A stretch of 64,000 nucleotides of DNA from Limihaloglobus sulfuriphilus. Lineage in GTDB: Bacteria; Planctomycetota; Phycisphaerae; Sedimentisphaerales; Sedimentisphaeraceae. Below, in pieces: positions 2,453 through 63,902 of the stretch (the first letter of the stretch is position 1; each line of letters starts with the position of its first letter). Location: assembly GCF_001999965.1 (NCBI RefSeq), contig NZ_CP019646.1:1240001-1304000 (forward strand), given 5' to 3'. Made by a program: the position numbers and the translations under genes. Below the pieces are notes generated by a model. It was given only the letters and a program-made list of their open reading frames with translations, had not been told where the DNA came from and ran no database searches.

Positions 2453-3818
2453 CTAACGGGTCACTTTTACTGAATTAGACATACGGCTTTCGTTGTCATT
2501 AAAATCGACTGAAGTTACCCTGTAATAATAATCGCCTTCGATCGGCATTGCGTTGAAATCGAGGGCGTTGTCCTCAAACGATAATGTATCTTTATAAACA
2601 TATGTAACAAAACTTGCACCATCAGCTTTGAAATTTGCACTCTCACCTCTGTATATCTTATACCAGAAGGCTTTCCCACAAGGTTTCCAGATTATTATTG
2701 TACCCTCAGCCCTAAGCTCAGGTGCTTCAGTAGCTGCATTTTTATCTGTTTTAGTCTGAATACAGGTCAACACCTGATCAGGGGCCGCGGCAGGGAAGAA
2801 GCTCTCATTTCTACCATCAGATGCTTTTATATAATATTCAATACCCTGCTCAGATATTTTTGATGCAGGAACAGTGCAGCAGAATATCGACCGGTTACGG
2901 CGTTTCATCGTTTTGCCTGTCCAGAAAAAAGCACCAGGTTTTCGGTAGTACAATTTCGCGGAGATACAGTCTTAACTCCTTCCATCGAGGATTCTTGCTG
3001 TTATCTCAACAGACTGGCCGGCCCGGACAGAAACCGGCTCGGATATTACTACCACAAGTGGAGCTTCATCGTCCGCATCCCCGGCCAGGCATTTAGAAGC
3101 AACACTATGCGGGCTTTCTGCCGCAGCGTCTCCTATGGCGGTTACAGTATATTCGAATACTCCGTCTGCTCTGTCAGTATAGCTTCGTGTATCGGCTCCA
3201 AGAGGAACCTCGTTTACCTTCTCGCCATCTCTATATACATTAAAGGCTATTACATTATCCTGGCGGTTTCTCCATTGAATCAAAGCCCCGCTTTTGGTGC
3301 CTTTTGCCGTAACATAAGCCGGGGCCTTAACCTGCTGTTTTTGCCTGAGTGAATTTTCCATTCCAAGATACCGCAGCTGAACAAACCTGTTCTGCGAGCT
3401 CTGAACGTTACCCAGTGACGATATGTCATCAACCCTGTGCGTAAAGTTTCTTGCCCAGCTCTCGAATGCACTTGGAAGATCATTCCATTTCGCATAGGGA
3501 AAAGTCTGTTCAAGAACGATATGGTCATGTGTCGCCTGAATTCTGCATCGGAGTTTTTCGAGCCTTGCCCTGTAAGCCGGATTCTCGGTGTTCTCAAGGC
3601 AACAGTCTATAACCGCCAGCTGCTCAACAGCCTTGGGCAGATCGTTGATTTCAGGCCCTACAAAGGTCAACGATATGCCGTGGGAAGGATTTATCGGATT
3701 GATATCGATTTTAAACGTCTGCCAGTCCTGCCAGCCGCCAGTATTTGGAATTTCGCATAAACCCAATATCGGACCGTCCGGATTGTCAAGCCTGACCTCG
3801 ATTGCGCCGCCATTTGCA
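2453..3818 (-). pseudogene. Distal half of an IS-split secreted glycosidase-like gene (CBM6 and Fn3 domains)
   Basis: The 3' half of the gene whose 5' half is at 5349-7229. Reading down the minus strand from the copy of the 10-bp target duplication at 3809-3818, the frame continues a CBM6-like carbohydrate-binding module (GGAIEVRLD, then GGWQDWQTFKI near the IS). A helical spacer follows, then a fibronectin-type-III domain (about 3340-3070) and a second Fn3-like domain near the end (about 2730-2460). At 2972-2974 an in-frame TAA interrupts the coding; the same frame reopens at once (AKLYYRKPGAFFW). The sequence therefore carries two lesions, the IS and a nonsense codon. Removing the IS and one target copy rejoins the two halves in frame (GSAANG|GAIEVRLD). 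No function is expected from this half alone. Confidence 0.85.
3809..3818. repeat. Target-site duplication, left copy (10 bp)
   Basis: GCCATTTGCA directly abuts the left inverted repeat of the insertion sequence and is repeated exactly at 5349-5358, abutting the right inverted repeat. Ten bases is within the range reported for ISAs1-family elements. The perfect match indicates a simple and probably recent insertion. Confidence 0.95.
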
Positions 3819-3837
3819 CAGGGCAATCGCATCTAAA
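3819..3837 (+). repeat. Left terminal inverted repeat of the IS (19 bp)
   Basis: CAGGGCAATCGCATCTAAA is perfectly matched in inverse orientation at 5330-5348. The stop codon of the passenger gene lies just inside it, at 3841. Confidence 0.95.
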
Positions 3838-3840
3838 ATA

Positions 3841-4128
3841 TCATTTTTTAGGCTTTTCGGTTAGTTTTTTTCTTTCAAGGCGTGTTATCCGTATGATTTC
3901 GTCAGCATATTGTTGCACTAAGTCCATGAATTGGTTGTAACTATCTATGTCAGCCTGCAGTGCTTCAAGCTCATCCTTTGGGACATATCGCACAACATTG
4001 GCTCCATTTTTCCACGTTTGGTGGTTGAAATGCTGCCGGTTTTTCATCTGACATATTTTCCCTCGTTCCATTCGCTCTATTTTTGCGATTTTTTCTAATA
4101 ATTTTATAGCTTTTTTTGTCTTTTTCAT
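3841..4128 (-). CDS. Small basic DUF6788-like passenger protein inside the IS
   Basis: A 95-aa protein rich in Lys and Arg. The sequence runs from a basic helix (KKTKKAIKLLEKIAKIERMERG) through a central segment with C-Q-M-K and HFNHQTWKNGANVVRYVP to a C-terminal acidic/basic helix (about residues 50-95). The segment ...RYVPKDELEALQ followed by a long helix is the pattern I know from DUF6788 proteins, which are often found beside transposases; their function is not established. It lies wholly within the IS, divergent from the transposase. No Shine-Dalgarno is clear; the 54-bp space between the two starts is AT-rich with TATAAT-like boxes on both strands. Family assignment is by eye and moderate. 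Confidence 0.65.
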   Translation of the reverse strand: MKKTKKAIKLLEKIAKIERMERGKICQMKNRQHFNHQTWKNGANVVRYVPKDELEALQADIDSYNQFMDLVQQYADEIIRITRLERKKLTEKPKK

Positions 4129-4182
4129 TATAGTATAATATATAGTATTCTATATCTTTGCAACGTTAAAACGAGGAAAATT

Positions 4183-5334
4183 ATGAAAAAAGAACAAAAC
4201 CAACGCAGATTAATGGACTATTTTTCGACAATTGAAGACCCCAGAGTCGAGCGTACTCGCAAGCATGAGCTTAGTGATATTTTATCCATTGCAATTTGTG
4301 CAATAATTTGTGGCGCTGATGGATGGACACAGGTTGAAGAGTTCGCTCAGTGCAAAGAAGAGTGGTTTAAAAGTTTTCTTTCTTTGCCTAATGGCATTCC
4401 ATCTCACGACACATTTGGACGAGTATTTTCTTCTCTCAAACCCGACTCATTTGAACAATGCTTCCTTGAATGGGTCAATGCCTTAGCCCAAAAGAGTGAA
4501 GGCAGGCTCATAGCCATTGACGGCAAAACTATGCGTAGAAGCGTTGATTATGCATCTGAAAAAGCGGCTGTTCACATGGTAAATGCCTGGTGCGACACCA
4601 ACAAAATGGTCATTGGGCAGATTGCAACAGAAACCAAGAGCAATGAGATAACGGCTATACCTAAGCTCTTGGAGTTAATTGATTTAGATGGTGCAGTTGT
4701 AACAACTGATGCTATGGGCTGCCAAAAGGAAATTGCTAATGCTGTAATTGAAAATGATGGGGACTATATCTTGCAGCTAAAGGCAAATCAGACCGGCCTG
4801 CATAAAAATGCAGTTACCCTTTTTGATGAATGTATAGACGATAATGTCTATAATATTCAATATACTGTTGCAAGTGAAACTGATGGAGGCCACGGCAGGG
4901 TTGAAGAACGCACATTGCGGGCTGTTTCAAATGTAGGATTCCTTAACTCTGAAAAGAAAAACTGGGTCGGGCTCAAGAGCCTGATATGTGTGGAGGCAAA
5001 GAGGAGCATAGGAGATGAAACAAGCGTAGAGAAACGGTATTACATATCAAGCCTGACTTGCAAAAATCCGCAAGATTTACTCAAATATATCAGGGGCCAC
5101 TGGGGGGTAGAGAACTCCTTACACTGGTGTTTAGATATCAGCTTTGCCGACGATGAAAGGAGAATAAGAAAAGGTTATGGAGCAGAAAATTTTGCAAGGC
5201 TCTCACGAATAGCACTGAATCTGCTAAAACAGCAAACCAAGCACAAGGTCGGCATAAAGACCAGAAGGCTGTGCTGCGGCTGGAACGAGCAATACCTATA
5301 TCGCGTGCTGACACAACAAAATAAAGGACTTTAG
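4183..5334 (+). CDS. ISAs1-family transposase (DDE)
   Basis: A 383-aa DDE transposase that cuts and joins the IS ends. The N-terminal domain (MDYFSTIEDPRVERTRKH, with SIAICAIICGADGW) is typical of the ISAs1/H-repeat family. Catalytic acidic residues can be placed at LIAIDGKTMRRS, VVTTDAMGCQKE and the HWGVENSLHW segment, followed by the characteristic DDERRIRKG. A good ribosome site (GAGG) lies 7 bases upstream of the ATG. The stop codon lies inside the right inverted repeat, as is common in compact IS elements. It appears intact and full length. Confidence 0.95.
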   Translation: MKKEQNQRRLMDYFSTIEDPRVERTRKHELSDILSIAICAIICGADGWTQVEEFAQCKEEWFKSFLSLPNGIPSHDTFGRVFSSLKPDSFEQCFLEWVNALAQKSEGRLIAIDGKTMRRSVDYASEKAAVHMVNAWCDTNKMVIGQIATETKSNEITAIPKLLELIDLDGAVVTTDAMGCQKEIANAVIENDGDYILQLKANQTGLHKNAVTLFDECIDDNVYNIQYTVASETDGGHGRVEERTLRAVSNVGFLNSEKKNWVGLKSLICVEAKRSIGDETSVEKRYYISSLTCKNPQDLLKYIRGHWGVENSLHWCLDISFADDERRIRKGYGAENFARLSRIALNLLKQQTKHKVGIKTRRLCCGWNEQYLYRVLTQQNKGL

Positions 5335-5348
5335 ATGCGATTGCCCTG
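5330..5348 (-). repeat. Right terminal inverted repeat of the IS (19 bp)
   Basis: Exact reverse complement of the left end at 3819-3837. It contains the last codon and stop of the transposase gene. Confidence 0.95.
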
Positions 5349-5358
5349 GCCATTTGCA
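5349..5358. repeat. Target-site duplication, right copy (10 bp)
   Basis: GCCATTTGCA, identical to 3809-3818, immediately outside the right inverted repeat of the IS. Confidence 0.95.
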
Positions 5359-7229
5359 GCAGACCCGGCACGTACCTCAAATGAATCCATCGCTGTAGTA
5401 ATCTCTGCCGGCTCGTATTTGAGCCAGTTGCCGTGCTGAATATAACCTACGCACTCACCTCCCTCGGAACATTCGGCTTTCTGTGTGCCGCGGTTAAGTT
5501 TGTAATCTACAGCTTGAAATTCAGAAGAGTTTCCAGAAACAGAATCGGTAAGTTTGAATTTACTTATATTAAACAGATATTCTCCGCTGTTGGGCCGGGT
5601 AGAGCCGGAAAACTCAGGTGTTGGTGTACATTCGCCAAATCCGCTGGCAAATGGTTCATTTTCATTTATGATATCTGTTATCTTCGCGGCAGAATTTTCG
5701 CCATAGCTTCGTCTGGCATACTCTGAATAAACGGCTTCAGAAGTTTTATATCTGCCTTTGCTGTCCCATGGCGCTTTGGCAATATAGCTGATCTTTGGAT
5801 CAATTGCATCTGTAAGCCGCCACGTAAGACAGTAAAGCCCTTTCATGTTGGAAGCCCTCTGATTCCAGGCTTCTACAGTATTAGAAAGGTGCACATTGTA
5901 TGGATAATAATATTGAGAGCTGTTAAAATCCCTCTCCAGCCATGGGCAACCCCAGTATTCCCTGTCTCCGTATTCTTTGCCGGAAACACATTTATCCGAA
6001 TAAGCAGAGATTGGAGCACAAATCACATCTTCTGGTAAACCTTCCACAAACTCGGGCTTGAGTCCCCAGCCAGCTACAGCTATCTTTGTTTGTGGAGACT
6101 TCTCTTTCATGCCATCGTAGAACATCCGGAAAATACCCTGCCAGAAATCTTTTTCATCCTGCGGCCCTTCTGAATGGAAACACAAAAGCACATCCAGATC
6201 AGGGTAGTCACGCGTAATCTGTTCAACCCTTGCCGCTACAAGTTCAGGGGCATCTGCCTTTATCCCGAATTTATCAGTATATTCATTGGGTATCAGATCA
6301 ATATCCAGGCCAAGACCTATCTTTACACCCCGCTCATGGGCATAGGCGATAACTTTCTGAAACATTGAGCGGCCCTTATCGAAAACCTCCTGGTTAGAGA
6401 GATTCTCGTTATGAATAGCCGCGTCTGAGCCGAAATCATAATCATCAAATAAATCTGTCGCACCCCAGAGGTAGTCTTCAATATTCCACTTTTCCCCCCG
6501 CCACATGTGGCCGCTGCGGGCAGTTGCCATCCAGACACGTGAGAGATAGCCCTTGTACTCAAAATTATGGTACATCTCATTGTGACCGTGAAACTGCTTT
6601 CCAAAATTGTAGTTATGAACATGGATAAAGTTCATTCTCATTTTCGCGGCGGTATCTATGATATATTTCCAGTCATTCCATGAATACACGGTTGCCGACT
6701 GCGGGAAATTGGTCCAGGGCAGAAATCCGCGAATATAAACAGCTGGATTTTTAACTTCATCAACATCCGGCAGATACAATTCTCTCTTCTGCTCAGGGAG
6801 AATATCACCGCTGAAATAAAAACCGACATCATAATAATCATCCAGCAGACCGTAAACGCCGTACATACAGCCGACGCCGCTACCTCCTGTGATGGCTATT
6901 ATTTCATTGCCGCGATTATTGATTTTCTTTAGAATATACCCTTCTTCTCCAATCAGCCCTGCCGGCTCATCAATCAAAGCTGATTTCGTAAAAAGGTCTG
7001 CCGCAGTGCCGCCCTTGACGCCTAATACAAAGCCTTTTCCGCGAATTGAAGACAAATTATCATCTATTTTAATCAGATCACCAGTGATATGATAAAGATA
7101 TCGCTGCAATTCTCTGGCGGCATAAATTTCTTTAGGCGAGGCCTGATCTGAAATAATTATGTGAGATGAAGAAGCAAAAACACTACAGACACTCAAGAAA
7201 AGCAATGGAAAAAATATTCTAAAAAACAT
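5349..7229 (-). pseudogene. Proximal part of an IS-split secreted glycosidase-like gene
   Basis: The 5' part of the interrupted gene. The ATG at 7229 is the best start: it follows GAGG by 5-6 bases and opens a signal peptide (FFRIFFPLLFLSVCSVFASS). Next comes an N-terminal alpha/beta domain like those of GH67/GH20-type enzymes (AARELQRYLYHITGD, then GGSGVGCMYGVYGLLDD), and a probable TIM-barrel region (MNFIHVHNYNFGK, ERGVKIGLGLDIDLIP, PDLDVLLCFHSEGP). The CBM6 module begins at VGYIQHGNWLKYEP and is cut by the IS; translation would run 5 codons into the IS end. Before insertion the protein would have been about 1,080 aa. Secretion as a truncated enzyme lacking the binding modules is possible but unproven. 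The exact GH family is not certain. Confidence 0.85.
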
Positions 7230-7317
7230 AAATACCTCAAAATGCAAATTATAGCTTTTGACAATTACTTGACATTTGACATTTTAAAGGTTTCTATTTT
7301 TTTGCAAGCAGATAATT

Positions 7318-14101: not shown

Positions 14102-15215
14102 ATGAAAATTCTCGCAATAGAGCCATACTATGGCGGCAGCCATAAAGCCTTTCTTGACGGTTGGATTGCCAACAGCCGCCATGACTGGCATGTCATGGGG
14201 CTTGGTCCGCACAAATGGAAATGGCGAATGAGAGGTGCCGCGGTCACATTTGCCCGGCAGCTTAAAAACTTACCCGCAAAATCCATTGATTTTGACATAA
14301 TATTCTGCAGCAGTATGCTGAATCTTGCTGAGTTTCTCGGCCTGGCGAGACAAGAGATACAAAATATACCCGCCCTTCTTTATTTTCGAAAACCAGATTA
14401 CATATCCATACCGATTTGAAGATGAACGCGATTATCAGTTTGGAATCACAAATATTACAAGCACACTGGCGGCAGATTTTGTATGGTTCAACTCAGAATT
14501 TCACCGCAAAGATTTTCTTCAGGGAGCAGTCAAAATGCTTCGAAAAATGCCGGACAACCGGTTTATCCGGGAATTTGAAGAAAAAATGTCTCAAAGCACT
14601 GTGGAGCACCTTGGCACTTCTATCGCCGAATATGATCACAGTCAGCCTGAAAGCAGTGAGCCTTTAAGGATTTTATGGTCCGCCAGATGGGAACACGACA
14701 AAAATCCGGAAGATTTTTTCGCGGCAATAGATATGCTCAATAAAACAGACACGCCCTTTGAACTTGCTGTCATAGGCCAGTCTTTTAGAGATGTTCCGGA
14801 AATCTTTGCCGCGGCAAAAGAGAAATACTCAGACAGGATTAAATTCTGGGGACACATCAGCGATCCTTCAGAGTACGCAAAGGTGCTAAGCTGGGCGGAT
14901 GTTTTCGTTTCGACAGCAATGCATGAATTTTTTGGACTTGGCTGTGTGGAATCGGCTCTTGCCGGCGGTTATCCCATTTTGCCCCAGCGACTTGCGTACC
15001 CTGAGCTTTTCAGGGCTGATATCGGGGAAAATAAACGGGACTTTTTTTATGACGGCTCACCAAAAATGCTCGCAAAACGTTTAGAAAAATTAGCGAAAGC
15101 AAAAAAGAACGGCTGTATCTGGAACGGCTCGCCGCAAAGAGTTAAAGATATGCTTAAAAGGTTCTTATGGGAAAACCGAGCCCCGAAGCTCGACGATAAA
15201 ATTGAATGTCTTTAA
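14102..15215 (+). pseudogene. tRNA-queuosine alpha-mannosyltransferase homologue with a frameshift
   Basis: The N-terminus (MKILAIEPYYGGSHKAFLDGW, then HKWKWRMRGAA) is that of the DUF3524/GTDC1 family, whose animal member mannosylates queuosine in tRNA-Asp. Frame one stops at 14417-14419; the family sequence continues in another frame from about 14388 (ENQITYPYRFEDERDYQFG, then a GT-B nucleotide-sugar domain with LRILWSARWEHDKNP and HEFFGLGCVESALAGG). The break falls at TATTTTC|GAAAAC (14381-14393), where relatives have Y-F-H-E-N: two bases of the His codon appear missing. A +1 slip at TTT-C would restore the frame but lose the conserved His. The rest is undamaged, so the break is either recent, a sequence error, or less likely recoding. 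Confidence 0.82.
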
Positions 15216-63443: not shown

Positions 63444-63902
63444 CTAAAACTCATCTCTGGTTACAAGGTTAAAATCAACAGCCTTTTCGCTTGGAGCAAC
63501 TTCTTTTATGGTAAAGTTGTTTTTGGCTACGGCAGAACCGAGTTTCCACACACTGCTGCGTGTTGGTATTTCAAAACCTGATTCATCGAGCCAGACAAAT
63601 TTGTACTGAAATTTTTTGGTTTTAAACGACTGGTTATAGCCCTTTACCTGTACCTCAAGCAAATCTTTGTCGTTAACACGCATGATGACTTCATTTACTT
63701 TGAGCCCCTCTCCTTTGAGGGCACTTATGACCTTTCGAAATGGGGTTAGTATAGGATTAGTGGCAGCGCCGGAGCTTCCTACATTCTCTCCCATGACAAC
63801 ACGCTCATCCACTTTGGACGTGCCGGGGGCACGTTTTTCCGCGCAACCGAACAGAAATATAACCGATGCACAAATTAAAACTATAAAACATTTAGATTTC
63901 AT
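63444..63902 (-). CDS. YcfL-like (DUF1425) lipoprotein
   Basis: A 152-aa lipoprotein (signal CFIVLICASVIFLFGC) with AGGAG 8 bases before the ATG. The C-terminal region (VQVKGYNQSFKTKKFQYKFVWLDESGFEIPTRSSVWKL) fits the YcfL/DUF1425 beta-sandwich family. It stands 95 bases before the LpoB-like gene in the same order as ycfL-lpoB in E. coli. Function is unknown. Confidence 0.82.
   Translation of the reverse strand: MKSKCFIVLICASVIFLFGCAEKRAPGTSKVDERVVMGENVGSSGAATNPILTPFRKVISALKGEGLKVNEVIMRVNDKDLLEVQVKGYNQSFKTKKFQYKFVWLDESGFEIPTRSSVWKLGSAVAKNNFTIKEVAPSEKAVDFNLVTRDEF

Follow-up and report, generated by a model that had tools for sequence, protein, structure and literature searches.

Limihaloglobus sulfuriphilus, presented in the available excerpt of PMC11266412 as one of three isolates of the Sedimentisphaeraceae, has a genome that consists of one contig of 3,868,357 bases. 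We analysed a stretch of 64,000 nucleotides of this contig (hereafter the window), whose forward strand carries at 14102-15215 a gene of the QTMAN family (Pfam PF12038, QTMAN_N, followed by a GT4 domain) without a single open reading frame. Instead, the gene occupies two adjacent frames, and the break is genuine in the given sequence. The N-terminal part (14102-14386, frame 0) comprises 95 codons, ends on a phenylalanine and matches positions 1-90 of PF12038. Past this point the same open reading frame leaves the family's frame and adds only ten residues (14387-14419, TGA at 14417-14419), giving 105 amino acids for 14102-14419 as a whole. The remainder of the gene lies in the +1 frame (14388-15215, stop codon included), where 14388-15212 matches PF12038 positions 92-163 and then the C-terminal GT4 domain (Glycos_transf_1, PF00534, 5.2e-14). 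The two QTMAN_N pieces score 104.5 and 69.3 bits (cut-off 25), and their E-values of 8.1e-29 and 5.3e-20 in a search of the whole genome rule out chance matches. This search returned these two pieces alone and no second copy of the family.

The one profile position absent between the two pieces is 91, the histidine of the YFHENQ motif. At the switch point, TATTTTC|GAA (14381-14390), the codon for this histidine is short of two bases when compared with relatives, which moves the frame by +1. No His codon exists at the break in any frame, and the residue would therefore not be recovered by a +1 or a -2 shift at this point. Codon-usage scoring shows the change as well: the preferred frame switches between the scoring intervals that begin at 14291 and at 14351, and the new frame is held through that beginning at 15071. 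In the last two intervals (15131 and 15191), which extend over the stop codon and past it, another frame is favoured. A preliminary description made from the letters of this DNA had named a queuosine-tRNA mannosyltransferase homologue (DUF3524/GTDC1 family) that seemed to have lost two bases of a His codon somewhere within 14375-14425, and family, site and type of lesion are all borne out. Three promoter-like matches were found, not above the level of shuffled sequences, and both terminator-like matches lie on the opposite strand.

We next asked how the family is distributed and whether the break is shared. Two samples, each including the window's genome, were searched: the order, with the family in 85 of 161 genomes, and an even sample of the phylum, with the family in 82 of 392. 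As seven genomes with the family are common to both, 160 distinct genomes remain, and in 157 of these a single frame runs through the site. Besides the window's genome, the order search yielded 83 genomes that are continuous at the site and one (G054) that is cut there by a contig end, while in the phylum sample only G281 fails to read through. The split at this site is thus confined to the window's genome (1/160); the same break occurs in none of the other 159, of which all but two cover the site. The four nearest genomes compared belong to other genera of the same family, and the relatives include no second genome of the genus. The frame was checked in all 160 genomes and the histidine itself in the aligned ones, where all 51 relatives have it (L030, which ends short of the site, was left out). 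All 80 named loci taken from public genomes have it as well; this set is biased and not independent, since 78 of them match a pattern that contains the histidine and some genomes are shared with the 51. An exact search of public genomes for the broken site gave no match, in a set from which the window's own genome is possibly missing.

Two other irregular copies of the family were seen. The locus in G281 (L057, contig C24) lies close to a contig end and has decayed strongly, to a remnant interrupted by two in-frame stops; it is an independent loss of QTMAN elsewhere in the phylum. In G249 the N and C halves of the gene (L055 and L056) lie on separate contigs, one close to the end of its contig and the other within a contig of 3 Mb, indicating a rearrangement or an assembly break.

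Apart from the break, the window's gene is in excellent condition. It keeps 54 of the 56 columns that are conserved in at least 95% of relatives, in agreement with the earlier remark that everything else was well kept; the two lost columns are the histidine and an Asp-to-Ser change that also occurs in L011 and L044. The motifs KWKWRMR, ENQ, RWEHDKNP and HEFFGL..E are all retained, as are R196, K201, E276 and E284, which we take to be the catalytic-type residues of a GT4 enzyme. The C-terminal domain thus contains the R, K and E-x7-E residues whose role in GT4 enzymes is described in the excerpts of PMC4506291 and PMC9883506. There is no further stop or shift in the gene. Since a stop would arise from about 4.6% of single substitutions, the lack of stops still permits some percent of neutral change. 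The ratio of the tree branch leading to the window's protein to that of its sister is 1.51, which falls between the values for the controls QueA (0.72) and TGT (1.84), so that a relaxation of constraint is not demonstrated. The break is recent, or it is not real.

The second of these options, an assembly or sequencing error in an organism whose gene is intact and whose enzyme works, is unlikely in our judgement. Such an error would likewise leave a gene that is pristine except for one indel, and both the otherwise perfect gene and the branch ratios, which reveal no relaxed constraint, agree with it. The nature of the lesion speaks against it, as the missing bases are two in number and lie between a run of T and a run of A, not within either. 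A loss of two bases outside homopolymer runs is unusual for the common indel errors. An insertion sequence at 3819-5348 (transposase PF13808/PF01609), with perfect 19-bp inverted ends and a 10-bp target duplication, is present in nine copies of 99-100% identity in the genome; the only two indels among these near-identical copies are common to four and to two of them, and none is private to one copy, which places a weak bound on assembly error over about 13.8 kb. Moreover, when 50 protein sequences of the window were compared with Pfam (two being the pieces of the QTMAN-like gene and seven having no family match; the open reading frame 63444-63902 was left out), no further domain proved to be divided by a simple frameshift. 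The one other domain that these scans showed to be divided between neighbouring open reading frames is explained by the insertion sequence. A home-made frame detector, which even at its loosest setting flagged only 62808 besides, missed the known break; its silence on other genes is therefore worthless, and it was discarded.

The gene divided by the insertion sequence lies on the reverse strand (2975-3832 and 5334-7247) and has matches to GH67-N, CBM6 and RGI-lyase; CBM6 positions 1-59 fall on one side of the element and 58-110 on the other. Two further copies of the element, L196 (G000:C1:3601571-3603099) and L202 (2608500-2610027), stand in opposite orientation and have exchanged their 10-bp flanks (10/10 and 9/10 bases alike), the pattern that an inversion of about 1 Mb would leave.

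The preliminary description had left room for two readings, a broken gene or a gene read by frameshifting. In the latter, peptidyl-tRNA-Phe would slip by +1 from UUU to UUC while the A site holds CGA, and the resulting protein would be complete except for the histidine. We consider this very unlikely, even though the slip as such is physically plausible. Indeed, the site combines a slippery P-site codon with an A-site codon that is predicted to be slow. After the slip, tRNA-Phe (anticodon GAA, one gene found) would pair again with UUC. CGA is the rarest arginine codon, with 417 occurrences among 120,475 codons (260 open reading frames of at least 200 amino acids from the window and 20 sampled stretches, L214-L233). 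With 150 of 169 tRNA candidates scored, the Arg anticodons found are TCT, CCT, CCG and ACG; of the 45 tRNA genes identified, Arg-ACG alone could read CGA. Bacterial +1 frameshifting of the prfB type served as a comparison system. The likeness to known P-site slippage lies in a UUU-C placed before a rare codon; the excerpt of PMC3617221 reports that tRNA-Phe slips at UUU-CAA if too little of the A-site tRNA is available. In addition, the RNA segment 14340-14400, in which the site lies, folds more stably than most of its shuffled versions (z -2.35, with 4 of 200 reaching the same stability).

The points that separate this site from such systems carry more weight. Programmed +1 frameshifting is expected at a conserved site, and this one is common to no sampled relative; a break shared by relatives, which the preliminary description had proposed as a sign of recoding, was looked for and found in no genome except the window's own, the nearest genomes being from other genera. 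There is no clear stimulator either, as the RNA downstream of the site is ordinary (z -0.44 and -0.02) and nothing resembling a Shine-Dalgarno sequence was seen immediately upstream. The product of any slip would be without the catalytic-type histidine kept in all 51 aligned relatives. The broken gene is hence the reading that fits better, and the slip loses ground on all three counts: an unshared break, no clear stimulator and a lost histidine. In-frame TTT-CGA is rare (2 occurrences against an expectation of 9 to 10); we considered whether this reflects avoidance of a slippery site, and rejected the idea. NNT-CGN pairs are depleted in general, falling below 0.85 of expectation for 15 of the 16 T-ending codons (window and L214-L233), and the rarity of TTT-CGA is therefore no sign of slipperiness. 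In the same sample NNC-CGN pairs are at or above expectation for 15 of the 16 C-ending codons.

Whether a protein lacking the histidine could work depends on what this residue does, for which we turned to predicted structure. No solved structure of the QTMAN family itself was found by sequence. The AlphaFold2 model of an intact relative (L024) adopts a GT-B fold (mean pLDDT 86.8). Its best structural match is 7qsg_A, the methylmannose polysaccharide mannosyltransferase ManT of M. hassiacum (Z 31.0, rmsd 2.6, 326 residues), and it also matches MshA (3c4q_A, Z 30.1) and PimA (2gej, Z 25.2). By fold L024 thus resembles these GT-B enzymes; it differs from them in sequence, with an identity of 10-19% among the 50 structural matches listed. 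In the model, His96 of L024 directly follows the strand 91-95, the place expected for this residue, and residues 103-107 nearby have a pLDDT below 50. According to the excerpt of PMC9883506, an N-domain histidine is largely conserved in GT-B enzymes and involved in catalysis, and His142 of ManT corresponds to MshA His133 and to PimA His118, a residue indispensable for mannosylation. Sequence alignment did not provide a link between L024 His96 and PimA His118: the profile of the QTMAN N-domain had no match in the PDB, a search with one of the genome's GT4 proteins aligned only the C-terminal part among the matches listed, and hhalign with three of these GT4 proteins was likewise limited to the C-domain. 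We infer that His96 may be the counterpart of the catalytic histidine of PimA, MshA and ManT, because of the fold match, its place after strand 91-95 and the statement in the PMC9883506 excerpt. A slip product without the histidine would by analogy probably be inactive, as the N-domain histidine is reported to be catalytic in these three enzymes.

A weaker form of frameshifting, in which leaky slippage at UUU-CGA yields small amounts of a histidine-less, partly functional QTMAN-like protein, strikes us as highly improbable. If it were true, the residual function would be slow transfer or tRNA binding, and the sugar on queuosine would be tied to the supply of tRNA-Arg(ICG). Re-initiation, by which the C-terminal piece would be made alone as a smaller protein with a different role, can draw on a +1 open reading frame of 296 amino acids from a TTG at 14325 and is scarcely credible, since this TTG lies inside the broken gene and outside the family's frame until 14388, the ATG at 14422 just past the 0-frame stop is in the third frame, and the two-piece pattern occurs in no other genome of the order search.

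An ordinary broken gene is most likely, ahead of a gene read by frameshifting. The locus is, with good probability, a pseudogene that arose recently, by a single lesion, from a bacterial GT4 glycosyltransferase gene of QTMAN-like type (PF12038). A loss of two bases in the codon of the conserved N-domain histidine would have shifted the frame, and translation would now give the 105-residue fragment, with its last ten residues outside the family's frame and presumably no activity; the loss would be one that the organism itself carries, not a product of assembly. The disrupting lesion at a site that is continuous in 157 of 160 genomes, together with the lack of an intact copy elsewhere in the genome, is what a pseudogene should present. 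Support comes from another gene of the window being broken, by the insertion sequence, and from the family appearing optional in the order, where 76 of 161 genomes (32 of 66 among near-complete ones) have no match. On the other side, the gene shows no decay beyond the break, and its branch is not clearly longer than in the controls.

The optional nature of the family is also apparent in its biochemical setting. In a search of 59 genomes of relatives (own included), QueA was found in 54, TGT in 55 and QTMAN in 29. QTMAN looks like an optional addition because the other two are so much more widespread; being nearly universal in these genomes, QueA and TGT do not track it. No QueH match was obtained in any of the 59 genomes, and QueG was matched in 20 of 21. 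In one draft genome of the same family, QueA lies in two adjoining pieces (G003:C8:55631-56628; profile positions 2-151 and 167-322). The window's genome has QueA, TGT and QueG and, judged from this gene content, should therefore make queuosine.

The animal QTMAN mannosylates the queuosine of tRNA-Asp, as stated in the excerpt of PMC12518689. The name comes from this animal enzyme, and an action of bacterial members on queuosine is putative; the addition of a sugar to queuosine by bacterial QTMAN homologues is unreported among the open-licence literature matches listed. The window's gene resembles QTMAN/GTDC1 in its N-domain and GT4 C-domain matches and in the motifs it keeps, and differs in the frame broken at the YFHENQ histidine. 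With the gene inactive, the organism would have queuosine without the sugar of a QTMAN-like enzyme. Taken alone, the locus is one more inactivated gene. Given that QueA, TGT and QueG are present, that the QTMAN-like gene is broken and that it is intact in relatives, L. sulfuriphilus is a possible natural knockout, and the pair of broken and intact genes could test whether bacterial QTMAN homologues add a sugar to queuosine.
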